This document shows, piece by piece, positions 15,790-18,863 of a DNA stretch of 64,000 nucleotides. A program made the position numbers and the translations under genes. Below the pieces are notes generated by a model, which did no database searches, was not told the DNA's origin, and was given only the letters and a program-made list of their open reading frames with translations. Each line of letters starts with the position of its first letter. Position 1 is the stretch's first letter. The DNA is from Roseateles sp. (GTDB taxonomy: Bacteria; Pseudomonadota; Gammaproteobacteria; Burkholderiales; Burkholderiaceae_C): assembly GCA_016790285.1 (NCBI GenBank), contig JAEUPJ010000076.1, positions 22,773-86,772 on the forward strand, in the 5' to 3' direction.

Positions 15790-15865
<76 letters not shown>

Positions 15866-15915
15866 AAACCCTTCAAAAGGTTGGAGTGGCGCGCAGTTCA
15901 AGTCGCGAAGGTTTA

Positions 15916-15991
15916 GTCCCCTTCGTCTAGAGGCCTAGGACACCACCCTTTCACGGTGATTACAGGGGTTCGAATCCCCTAGGGGACGCCA
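15916..15991 (+). tRNA. tRNA-Glu (anticodon TTC)
   Basis: 76 nt with encoded GCCA end. The acceptor GTCCCCT/AGGGGAC and the T-arm are perfect, and the anticodon TTC is at 15950-15952. The anticodon stem is CCACC/GGTGA, leaving the outermost pair (27-43) as a C-A mismatch. Confidence 0.97.
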
Positions 15992-16044
15992 AGTTTGATG
16001 AGCTTGGATATTGTCGAAAGACGGTATCGAAATTCATCCCACGC

Positions 16045-16121
16045 GGAGTGGTAGTTCAGTTGGTTAGAATACCGGCCTGTCACGCCGGGGGTCGCGGGTT
16101 CGAGCCCCGTCCACTCCGCCA
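16045..16121 (+). tRNA. tRNA-Asp (anticodon GTC)
   Basis: 77 nt with encoded GCCA end. The acceptor GGAGTGG/CCACTCC and the anticodon stem CCGGC/GCCGG are intact; loop CTGTCAC gives anticodon GTC at 16079-16081. It is the last tRNA of the cluster. Confidence 0.97.
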
Positions 16122-17263: not shown

Positions 17264-17677
17264 TCATAGCGCAGGTTGAGCAGCCTGCCGAGAAGCGTGT
17301 CGATGCATGACGGGCCTCGCGCGCAAGGCATCACGCCAGCCGAGCTGGTGAATGACGTTGTTCAGGTGCAGCATGCGCCGAGACCGCGCCAGTGTCTGGC
17401 CCTCGCCGTCGACCAACGCGACGTTGCACAGGATGTTCATCGGATCGAAAAGGGCGACGATGTCCGGCTGGATCTCAGTCCATTCCCACGCGATCTGGAT
17501 GGGACCGATGTTGTCCAGCGTTGCCCAGACCTCCTGGCCGGACCTCAGGCCAGATCGTGCATCGTGCACCCTAACGCTGCTTCCCACTTGACGCAGTTCA
17601 TGGGATGCCAATTCGAACTCGTTTACAGTCTTGACGACCGTCTCGCAGGCCATCAGCTGCCAAGCTGCCATCTGCAT
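17264..17677 (-). CDS. RsaM-like (DUF4902-like) quorum-sensing-associated protein
   Basis: A 137-residue protein divergent from the LuxR-type gene. The central segment IQIAWEWTEIQ, then NILCNVALVDGEGQTLARS and NNVIHQLGWRDAL, resembles by eye the pattern W-W / NLMLVD-x-x-G / I-x-x-L-x-W that I associate with DUF4902/RsaM proteins. Those proteins sit beside luxR/luxI genes in Burkholderia and Pseudomonas and dampen AHL signalling. The ATG at 17677 is chosen because GGGAG lies 7 nt upstream; an ATG at 17719 lacks one. The lux-box-like site at 17736-17751 is centred about 66 nt upstream of this ATG, compatible with LuxR-activated transcription. Family assignment is tentative. Confidence 0.55.
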   Translation of the reverse strand: MQMAAWQLMACETVVKTVNEFELASHELRQVGSSVRVHDARSGLRSGQEVWATLDNIGPIQIAWEWTEIQPDIVALFDPMNILCNVALVDGEGQTLARSRRMLHLNNVIHQLGWRDALRARPVMHRHASRQAAQPAL

Positions 17678-17735
17678 TCGGATCTCCCGTCTTTTGGATG
17701 GGTTGCAGTTTGCGTTCATCCTGAGCCGACTGCTC

Positions 17736-17751
17736 CTACCAACCCTAGTAG
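17736..17751. promoter_or_regulatory. lux-box-like operator 1
   Basis: CTACCAACCCTAGTAG fits the CT-N12-AG lux-box frame. It lies between the rsaM-like gene and the luxR-type gene, ending 3 nt before the luxR ATG. It shares CTACCAA and GTAG with operator 2 at 18466. The position suggests activation of the rsaM-like gene and simultaneous occlusion of luxR translation or transcription initiation. Confidence 0.6.
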
Positions 17752-17754
17752 CGC

Positions 17755-18459
17755 ATGAACCTGCAGCGGTACGAACAAGTCAGTCAAGCGGCGGATTTCG
17801 CGTCTTTCAGGCAAGGCCTGATCGATTTCGCGAACGATCTGGATTTCGGCTTGATATCGGGCGTGCTGGCCGTTGAGCGGCGCGGGCCCGGCGCTAAGAC
17901 AGAGTTCTTCTCCGTTGGCAATACGCCAGCAGAGTTCCTGGCGGCTCAGGTGAACCCGGAGAACGCCAAGCGCGACCCGGTTCATCGCCACGTGATGACC
18001 AACGCTGCTCCCTTGATTTATGACCAGCGCCTCTATGCGAACGCGGGGGCTGGCGACTTGTGGGAAATGCAGGCGCCGTTTGGCTATCGCACCGGTCTGG
18101 CCGTAAGCGTGCACATGCCGGGTTACCGACGATTCCTTCTCGGCGTCGATCGGAACGAGGCATTGCCGAGCGATCCCATCAGGCTCAATCGAATGATTGC
18201 TGACCTGCAGTTGCTCGCCGTGCACGCTCAAGACGCGGCTGCGCGGTTGTTGGTGCCTTTGAAGGTGCCACGCTTGCCTCAGCGGCAGCTGGAGATCCTG
18301 CGCTTGACCATGGAGGGCAAGAGCGCATGGGTGGTCGGTAGCCTGCTCGGGATCAGCGAGAACACAGTCAACTACCACCTCAAGCAGCTGTTCAAGCAGC
18401 TTGACGTGTCCAACAAGAATCACGCCGTCTTGAAGGCGATGGAGTTGGGGTTGTTGTGA
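17755..18459 (+). CDS. LuxR-family quorum-sensing regulator without an adjacent luxI
   Basis: A 234-residue regulator. Residues about 1-165 form an autoinducer-binding domain. Residues about 175-234 form a GerE-type helix-turn-helix (LPQRQLEILRLTMEGKSAWV then ISENTVNYHLKQLFKQLDVS) with the conserved E and G of LuxR DNA-binding domains. In the ligand domain the D-P pair (AKRDPVHRH) and the later G (FGYRTGLAV) are kept. The usual pocket aromatics appear changed by eye: W57 to F, Y61 to Q, W85 to Y (TraR numbering). No luxI gene is in the window. There is no strong Shine-Dalgarno before ATG 17755, where operator 1 abuts; a later start cannot be excluded. Confidence 0.85.
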   Translation: MNLQRYEQVSQAADFASFRQGLIDFANDLDFGLISGVLAVERRGPGAKTEFFSVGNTPAEFLAAQVNPENAKRDPVHRHVMTNAAPLIYDQRLYANAGAGDLWEMQAPFGYRTGLAVSVHMPGYRRFLLGVDRNEALPSDPIRLNRMIADLQLLAVHAQDAAARLLVPLKVPRLPQRQLEILRLTMEGKSAWVVGSLLGISENTVNYHLKQLFKQLDVSNKNHAVLKAMELGLL

Positions 18460-18465
18460 CACCCC

Positions 18466-18481
18466 CTACCAAGGTTTGTAG
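18466..18481. promoter_or_regulatory. lux-box-like operator 2
   Basis: CTACCAAGGTTTGTAG fits CT-N12-AG and is a better dyad than operator 1 (CTAC-x-AA-xx-TT-x-GTAG). It begins 6 nt after the luxR-type stop codon. A LuxR-type start site about 42 bp beyond its centre would fall near 18511-18516, just upstream of a 16-codon ORF. Confidence 0.6.
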
Positions 18482-18511
18482 TTCCTCAAATTTGGTCGCT
18501 CATCCACACTG

Positions 18512-18549
18512 AACTCCATCGAATCACGGCCCTTCGGCTAGACGGAGTT
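18512..18549 (+). promoter_or_regulatory. hairpin covering the small-ORF ribosome site
   Basis: AACTCCATC at 18512-18520 pairs with GACGGAGTT at 18541-18549 (8 of 9 positions), enclosing a small GCC-CTTC-GGC hairpin at 18529-18538. The 3' strand contains the GGAG Shine-Dalgarno at 18544-18547. Transcripts reading through from luxR would contain the full hairpin; a transcript begun near 18516 would lack part of the blocking strand. Confidence 0.4.
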
Positions 18550-18553
18550 GAAT

Positions 18554-18604
18554 ATGTGGAAGCTGTTTGCTGAGCTTTTTGGCCTGCCTTACACCGGCGG
18601 CTGA
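18554..18604 (+). CDS. 16-residue peptide ORF downstream of a lux box
   Basis: ATG at 18554, stop TGA at 18602-18604, peptide MWKLFAELFGLPYTGG. GGAG at 18544-18547 with 6-nt spacing is a good ribosome site. The peptide would be an amphipathic, aromatic helix followed by a Pro-Tyr-Thr-Gly-Gly tail. It occupies the place where a luxI target gene could be expected, after operator 2 and before a strong terminator at 18677, so the LuxR-driven transcript would be about 200 nt. It could be a signalling or regulatory peptide, a leader peptide, or a chance ORF within a small RNA. I know no named homologue. Confidence 0.4.
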   Translation: MWKLFAELFGLPYTGG

Positions 18605-18676
18605 CTAGCCAACGGAGGATCATCAGGTAAAGCGACACCTCCATCGCTTTCGTTCGGCGCCCCCCGAACGTCTTGT

Positions 18677-18717
18677 GCCCGCGACCGCCCTATCCAGGGC
18701 CCTCGCGGGCTTTTTTG
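18677..18717 (+). terminator. strong terminator after the luxR / small-ORF unit
   Basis: GCCCGCGA at 18677-18684 pairs with TCGCGGGC at 18703-18710, with further inner GC pairing. It is followed by TTTTTTG. It separates the luxR module from the decarboxylase gene. Confidence 0.88.
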
Positions 18718-18863
18718 TTTTTGGCGGCTGCTTCACAGCCAGCCAAGCTGGGCGCCGAGATCGGCAGGTCCGGCATTCCCTGGCCCCAGGACACGGTGGC
18801 GACACGCTGCGGCCCTACACTTCGCGGCTTCGTTTTTTGATGCCCGCCCGCTGGAGGCCGCCC

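Follow-up and report, generated by a model that had tools for sequence, protein, structure and literature searches.

A LuxR–RsaM locus of Roseateles with a putative peptide gene in the usual place of luxI

This report concerns a LuxR–RsaM locus at positions 17264–18716 of a 64,000-nucleotide stretch of a Roseateles sp. genome (the whole stretch is referred to below as the window). Its sequence reads as a LuxR–RsaM circuit in which a small peptide gene occupies the place usually held by luxI, and we propose that it is a peptide-signal circuit built on a LuxR scaffold with RsaM feedback. We put the probability of this reading at about 55%; the linkage of receptor gene and peptide gene is a direct observation, and the peptide would be the ligand of the receptor.

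According to this proposal the window locus would belong, as its short form, to a conserved module, rsaM ← luxR → peptide, in which LuxR would activate both rsaM and the peptide gene by binding one type of box ahead of each. The adjacent LuxR would have as its ligand the peptide, whose conserved part, the C-terminal end, is xPxxxW in long forms and LPYTGG in the window; a ribosomally made peptide would close a positive loop, with RsaM as its negative arm. A double-glycine leader precedes the peptide in most related genera, where a linked C39-peptidase ABC transporter and HlyD-type protein would cut and export it to act as a secreted signal. Since this leader and linked exporter are absent from Roseateles, its peptide would be exported otherwise or act inside the producer.

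Peptide genes downstream of luxR

The first-pass annotation of this DNA had placed one of two matching 16-bp sites after the luxR stop, and overlooked that this site (box 2) precedes a conserved open reading frame (ORF) of 16 codons and a structured RNA. The micro-ORF (18554–18604, plus strand; MWKLFAELFGLPYTGG) lies 72 nt past box 2, has a GGAG ribosome site, and is proposed here to encode the short form of a peptide signal. It is present in all 14 orthologous loci (L001–L014), where the encoded peptides vary in length and at the N-terminus and keep a G[LF]P motif and the peptide end, which in the window is LPYTGG. Over the 15 micro-ORF sequences the differences at the three codon positions were.356/.127/.532, greatest at third positions, and pairwise comparison of codons gave 437 synonymous and 574 non-synonymous differences; a second set of codon-position differences was.311/.171/.419. 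The substitutions appear coding-like and do not indicate strong purifying selection on every residue.

A second LuxR of the genus, at about 43–51% identity, likewise has a divergent DUF4902-like gene (not found at L035, which is truncated by the contig end) and a micro-ORF past its stop, encoding MKVIDLICEILGLPKLGG and kin. This micro-ORF is present in 17/17 paralogue-type loci (L015, L016 and L032–L046, L045 being a duplicate of L016). In orthologue and paralogue rows of the genus that passed the fixed test described below, the micro-ORF lies 84–131 nt past luxR. The gene past the paralogue micro-ORF at L016:4905–5255, considered as a possible signal synthase, matched no Pfam family; by eye its C-terminal half resembles the helix-hairpin-helix of the RNA polymerase alpha C-terminal domain.

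A search with an alignment of 14 LuxRs in 150 genomes of the same family, the own genus included, gave matches in 39, and regions at 40 places were fetched. In most of these a small ORF lies 70–206 nt past luxR and closes with xPxxxW or something near to it. These tails include APKSTW, SPRTGW, APTKGW, GPNGGW, TPNKTW and IPVGRW among others, and they usually stand behind a double-glycine leader, LDxxLLxxVxGG. The tail is repeated two to five times in nine precursors, and its copies agree within each of them except L121: five of GPNGGW in L085, four of SPKGTW in L109, three of PKGGW in L121, and pairs in L089, L106, L107, L110, L116 and L118. The two tails of L068 differ. Six peptides were scanned, and no Pfam or NCBIfam family matched any of them above cut-off.

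A fixed test, which called for a ribosome site, 12–110 codons and the tail motif within 450 nt of luxR, was applied to 82 of the 83 collected luxR loci (L126 was left out as it had too little flank). It can be seen that 65/82 loci passed, 32 of them strictly and 33 loosely, against 0–2 strict passes and 1–7 in all for ten dinucleotide shuffles, 0 strict and 3/82 in all on the reverse strand, and 0–2 strict and 0–5 in all at five other offsets. Because the tail motif was picked after part of the loci were known, these figures represent an excess over background and not a blind prediction. One pass (L111_4) was set aside as an apparent chance match, and nine of the 17 misses carry a peptide gene by eye (L002, L008, L011, L012, L013, L116, L117, L122 and L127), in which the ribosome site is weaker, the tail is extended or some other detail differs slightly. 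By test and by eye together, a peptide gene lies just downstream of luxR in 73/82 loci; those without one are L129 and eight inner members of two tandem arrays. Outside the first, mostly Roseateles set, 39/51 loci passed the fixed test. As in peptide-pheromone systems, a small peptide gene stands beside its regulator and is conserved across species. The two arrays, L108 and L111, are each composed of five luxR genes with a peptide gene after the last only, possibly an arrangement of several receptors with one or several peptides.

Genes for an HlyD-type protein and a C39-peptidase ABC exporter, which would handle the peptide, often come after the peptide gene in long-form loci. By similarity both are present in 24/31 long-form loci, with HlyD alone in three loci that have 1.5-kb flanks, and Pfam identified C39 in 4/4 tested (E 1e-34 to 3e-37) and HlyD_3 in 2/2. 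No linked exporter was found in any of the 42 short-form rows, 27 of which have at least 3.9 kb downstream.

A quick maximum-likelihood tree was built of 84 rows, in which many inner branches are weak and three outgroup rows lie on long branches, one of them joining L129. Here 40 short forms, the window's included, form a clade (SH-aLRT 99) nested among long forms, and there are two long/short changes overall. Most simply, the original peptide would have carried a leader and been exported; the ancestor of the window group would then have lost the leader and the linked exporter, and Roseateles the terminal Trp, with the tail position, the boxes and RsaM retained. Tail distance was correlated with ligand-domain distance once DNA-binding-domain distance had been removed (r 0.53, 72 rows, 0/1000 permutations), and the same partial correlation was seen in the 42 short forms (r 0.45, 0/1000), the permutations in both cases ignoring phylogeny.

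The regulator, its boxes and the RsaM-like gene

The luxR-type gene (17755–18459, plus strand) encodes a protein of 234 aa with an autoinducer-binding domain (Autoind_bind, 60.0 bits) and a C-terminal GerE helix-turn-helix domain (48.7 bits). Both exceed the Pfam cut-offs, and the gene is a luxR-type regulator as first annotated; in profile comparison it matches LasR (E about 1e-23), and its nearest named relatives come from Roseateles puraquae, R. saccharophilus and Pelomonas spp. We take the canonical residues in contact with acyl-homoserine lactones (AHLs) to be W57, Y61, D70 and W85 of TraR, W57 being the Trp that touches the lactone. Reading these positions by comparison with LasR and TraR, we found a non-canonical set, F, Q, D and Y, in the window LuxR. 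Of the 82 luxR rows, 75 have Tyr or Phe at the W57 position and four (L098, L106, L117 and L129) have Trp, Y61 is kept in 5 and D70 in 80, and the W85 position is Trp in 41 and Tyr in 39. Samples of the order and the phylum (399 and 398 genomes, with at most seven candidates scored per genome) gave three LuxRs outside the family, which keep W57 and downstream of which no such peptide was seen. Plasmids, searched with the L107 LuxR, and phages, searched with the window LuxR, gave only distant LuxRs at 28–31% identity. As a separate observation, L129 has an RsaM-like gene and a LuxR with the canonical Trp, without a peptide gene, and may show a pre-peptide state.

Absence of luxI, noted at first for the locus, was borne out for the genome, which is of Roseateles/Pelomonas type, 5.88 Mb and 95% complete: a profile search with PF00765 (LuxI) gave no match, and the regulator is a LuxR solo, having no cognate luxI in its genome. 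The search was able to see LuxI, since full-length genes were detected in G032, G145 and G047, always on contigs other than that of luxR; there was no match in any of 14 built-in control genomes or in 23/28 genomes holding a peptide-linked LuxR. Weak matches occurred in 8/20 genus genomes, and the six examined were all exosortase-type acyltransferases (TIGR03694), so that a cryptic luxI was rejected for L047–L049 and L052–L054. Acyltransferases of this family exceed the Pfam LuxI cut-off and are a source of false luxI calls in the genus. The first suggestion that this is an AHL circuit which has lost its synthase found no support, because a peptide gene, often with exporter genes, holds the place after luxR, and full-length LuxI was present in only 3/28 genomes, on other contigs.

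Both 16-bp boxes lie exactly where they were first reported, box 1 (CTACCAACCCTAGTAG) at 17736–17751 and box 2 (CTACCAAGGTTTGTAG) at 18466–18481, and both have counterparts in 14/14 orthologous loci, which exceeds chance. Box 1 is identical in 11 of these and has one change in the other three, and box 2 is CTACCAGGGTTTGTAG in 10/14, CTACAAGGGTTTGTAG in L005 and L008, and CTACCAGGGTTGGTAG in L009 and L013. The sequences CAAACT (17707–17712, minus strand) and CACACT (18505–18510, plus strand) lie 23 nt past box 1 and box 2 and are candidate −10 elements of the rsaM and peptide promoters, respectively. On account of these elements the boxes appear to be placed as for a LuxR-type activator, towards rsaM and towards the micro-ORF, and they are probably LuxR binding sites. 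With up to two mismatches the orthologue consensus CTACCAGGGTTTGTAG occurs at two sites in the 5.88-Mb genome, both at this locus. The 15 other genome sites all have three mismatches, are no more numerous than in the control, and give no sign of a wider regulon for this consensus. The pattern CTACCAN6GTAG has no flood of exact matches, such as would have cast doubt on the boxes, and is found at four places: the two boxes, a tRNA-Val end and one place without a clear target. Its one-mismatch matches are swamped by chance, and a wider box regulon was therefore rejected as unsupported. A perfect palindromic box at G000:C59:24698–24713 (L133) is, by eye, the CCA end of a tRNA-Val gene, which is a caution for box searches.

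In the family as a whole, 59/73 loci have a palindromic CT-N12-AG site in the interval from luxR to the peptide gene (shuffle mean 5.0), and 49/73 have a matching site (at least 11/16) upstream of luxR (shuffle mean 0.1), where the shuffles preserve base composition only and not dinucleotides, and where the pair of L124, one of the 49, is unreliable as its luxR is cut by a contig end. The commonest palindromic box before the peptide gene is CTGTAAGAGTTGACAG or near, and the distance from box to peptide ATG is mostly 62–85 nt; in a few rows, for example L097, L112 and the window, the strongest palindrome listed differs from the proposed box. The paralogue has a different box pair, CTGGCAGACTTGGCAG / CTAGCAGACTTGCTAG with variants; 8 genus loci pass the pair test, and at other paralogue loci the second site is outside the CT-N12-AG form. 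Each paralogue therefore tends to have what looks like a private box type before rsaM and before the peptide gene.

The divergent rsaM-like gene (17264–17677, minus strand) has 137 codons and belongs to the DUF4902/RsaM family. Its mechanical ORF start, at 17719, is excluded because of in-frame stops there in orthologues L001 and L003, and the start at 17677 is preceded by a GGGAG ribosome site. The search against PF16245 (DUF4902) suggested at first pass was divided in outcome: the window protein alone scored 17.9 bits against a cut-off of 25, and so did not pass, orthologue L010 (25.1) and the protein of paralogue locus L016 (29.9) passed, and that of L015 fell below the cut-off. The assignment itself held good, since a profile of 15 relatives matches BcRsaM (4o2h) at E 3.7e-6 and 4o2h is also the closest PDB structure (E 6.8e-5, TM 0.61) to the predicted model, whose mean pLDDT is 81.6. 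A divergent RsaM-like gene is present in 69/75 distinct loci, inner array members excluded, and in 39 of the 44 loci beyond the first set, which contributed nothing to the profile and among which is L113, the own paralogue. RsaM is known from AHL systems and other RsaMs repress AHL quorum sensing (PMC10710839); the RsaM of the window circuit would be inhibitory. With a LuxR without luxI, an RsaM partner and two real boxes, the locus is the compact, dedicated circuit that had been described.

Alternative explanations

The output of the circuit, and not its signal, could be the peptide: LuxR would sense some other small molecule and turn on, along with rsaM, the gene for an exported short peptide of antimicrobial or surface-active function. 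In its favour, bacteriocins too typically have double-glycine leaders and C39 exporters, and the AHL pocket retains D70 and P71. The constant xPxxxW pattern of tails only about six residues long, the lack of any immunity gene seen among the conserved neighbours, and the correlation of tail and receptor over all rows and in the short forms argue the other way, and we consider an output role unlikely. Listening to foreign AHLs, which the first-pass annotation had offered, would make the regulator an AHL-type solo that targets the RsaM arm and some unrelated ORF or short RNA. An autoinducer-binding domain above cut-off and the lack of luxI in the own genome would suit such a solo, as would the occurrence of RsaM in AHL systems (PMC10710839). 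This possibility is weakened by the replacement of the W57 residue in 75/82 rows and by a peptide gene at 73/82 loci in many genera, and we judge it improbable.

Another candidate for the working product of box 2 in Roseateles is the structured RNA, with the micro-ORF as a relic. The 3′ element (18629–18716, plus strand) is predicted to fold into two hairpins with C-rich loops (18629–18650 and 18651–18670) before a terminator hairpin with a T run (18677–18710), with a z of −5.2 in the window, and is possibly a small regulatory RNA. It is found in the same 15/20 genus genomes as LuxR, with a weak partial match in G018, and an Rfam scan of 18440–18760 gave nothing above threshold. Within the genus this RNA is more conserved than the ORF; the ORF and its tail motif are nonetheless kept in 14/14 orthologues with coding-like substitutions, and paralogue loci have the ORF and not this RNA sequence, which makes an RNA product with a relic ORF distinctly improbable. 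The leader stretch at 18512–18549 (plus strand) could pair with the ribosome site, and its hairpin is better than shuffles in L013 (z −2.8) and L014 (z −2.1), the window having z −0.1. Lastly, an Orn/Lys/Arg decarboxylase gene lies about 0.4 kb past luxR in the window, and the micro-ORF might encode a leader peptide that attenuates it. The terminator would end the transcript before the decarboxylase gene, and in 12/14 orthologous loci that gene is about 1.8 kb away with the ORF still kept; attenuation is accordingly very hard to credit.

Several observations weigh against the peptide-signal circuit that we prefer. The peptide is a predicted product of the ORF. The Roseateles short forms have neither leader nor linked exporter and their tail has lost its Trp, and among the long forms no linked transporter was found in L068 (1.5 kb flank), L109, L114 or L125. 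D70 is kept in 80/82 rows and P71 in 81/82, so that AHL-like ligands could still fit; peptide-linked LuxRs L098, L106 and L117 retain W57, and L129 has RsaM and LuxR with no peptide. LuxI genes lie elsewhere in 3/28 peptide-LuxR genomes, and there are weak PF00765 matches in G121 and G052, one of those in G052 about 15 kb from luxR. The correlation of tail and ligand domain, besides leaving phylogeny out of account, is not significant in the 30 long forms alone (r 0.16, 73/1000), and the rows are not independent, since about 31/82 come from one genus or near it. The closer conservation of the 3′ RNA within the genus belongs here too.

Neighbourhood, precedents and meaning

The window LuxR is present in 15/20 genus genomes, the own genome included, the other 14 being at 74–95% identity, and L001–L014 retain the RsaM-like gene, both boxes, the micro-ORF and tRNA-Ser throughout. 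From this the LuxR–RsaM circuit appears to be old in the genus and vertically inherited. Adjacency of the locus to tRNA-Ser, as first annotated, recurs in 14/14 orthologous loci. A lower G+C content had also been noted, and the observation stands (0.57–0.61 against 0.60–0.68 in the surroundings); what it seemed to imply, an island or horizontally acquired patch, was rejected, because the tRNA cluster at 15.5–16.2 kb is equally low (0.56–0.58) and the constant tRNA-Ser points to an old neighbourhood. The tRNA Ala-Glu-Asp cluster (15790–16121) is single in the window and wholly or partly duplicated in most of the L001–L014 loci with sufficient flank.

The LuxR/RsaM pair is already known. RsaM 'type 6a' loci have rsaM divergent from a luxR solo, Pelomonas being named in the review, and share with the window locus these two genes, their divergent order and the absence of luxI (PMC10710839). 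The word 'peptide' is absent from the main text of that review; the present analysis adds a peptide gene, box pairs and exporter genes, and within the family examined the type 6a pair is, on sequence grounds, mostly an RsaM–LuxR–peptide module. In the literature searched, DUF4902 was met with only in this review (PMC10710839). No LuxR recognised with its own peptide gene was found in a search whose coverage stopped short of preprints and most subscription papers, and within it neither the peptide gene after box 2 nor the family-wide module was found in print.

Among LuxR homologues that respond to a peptide, the closest precedent is PipR of Pseudomonas sp. GM79, which answers the peptide Ser-His-Ser and is uninfluenced by AHLs (PMC4981722). 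The PipR signal is external (plant macerate or hydrolysate) and needs an ABC importer, whereas the window regulator has its own peptide gene. A regulator beside its own peptide gene, with a conserved C-terminal tail, also recalls the Gram-positive RRNPP systems Rgg/SHP and PlcR/PapR (PMC13220807), and the positive loop proposed for the window module would be analogous to theirs. Unlike RRNPP systems, the present module has a LuxR autoinducer-binding receptor, an RsaM arm and, in most long forms, double-glycine/C39 export genes. Long forms resemble double-glycine/C39 loci in their LDxxLLxxVxGG leader and their C39-ABC and HlyD genes, and differ in the very short xPxxxW tail and the linkage to LuxR and RsaM. 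Such leaders with C39 exporters are typical of bacteriocins and streptococcal pheromones.

LuxR proteins are regarded as receptors for AHLs or other small molecules, and signalling by peptide pheromones as mainly Gram-positive. The chances seem to us evenly balanced that there is a Gram-negative quorum-sensing class whose LuxR-type receptor has its own ribosomal peptide as activator (xPxxxW, with C39-ABC/HlyD in most long forms) and RsaM as brake, and in which the Roseateles form, having dropped leader and linked exporter, may report on the producing cell. Because peptides this short can be made synthetically, the central claim is directly testable with a reporter. If it is true, the luxR–rsaM–peptide module would join LuxR sensing with peptide pheromones, would provide a candidate cognate signal for a whole group of LuxR 'solos', and would offer a new setting in which to test RsaM, whose mechanism is unsettled; if the ligand relation holds, the module would be a class of its own.

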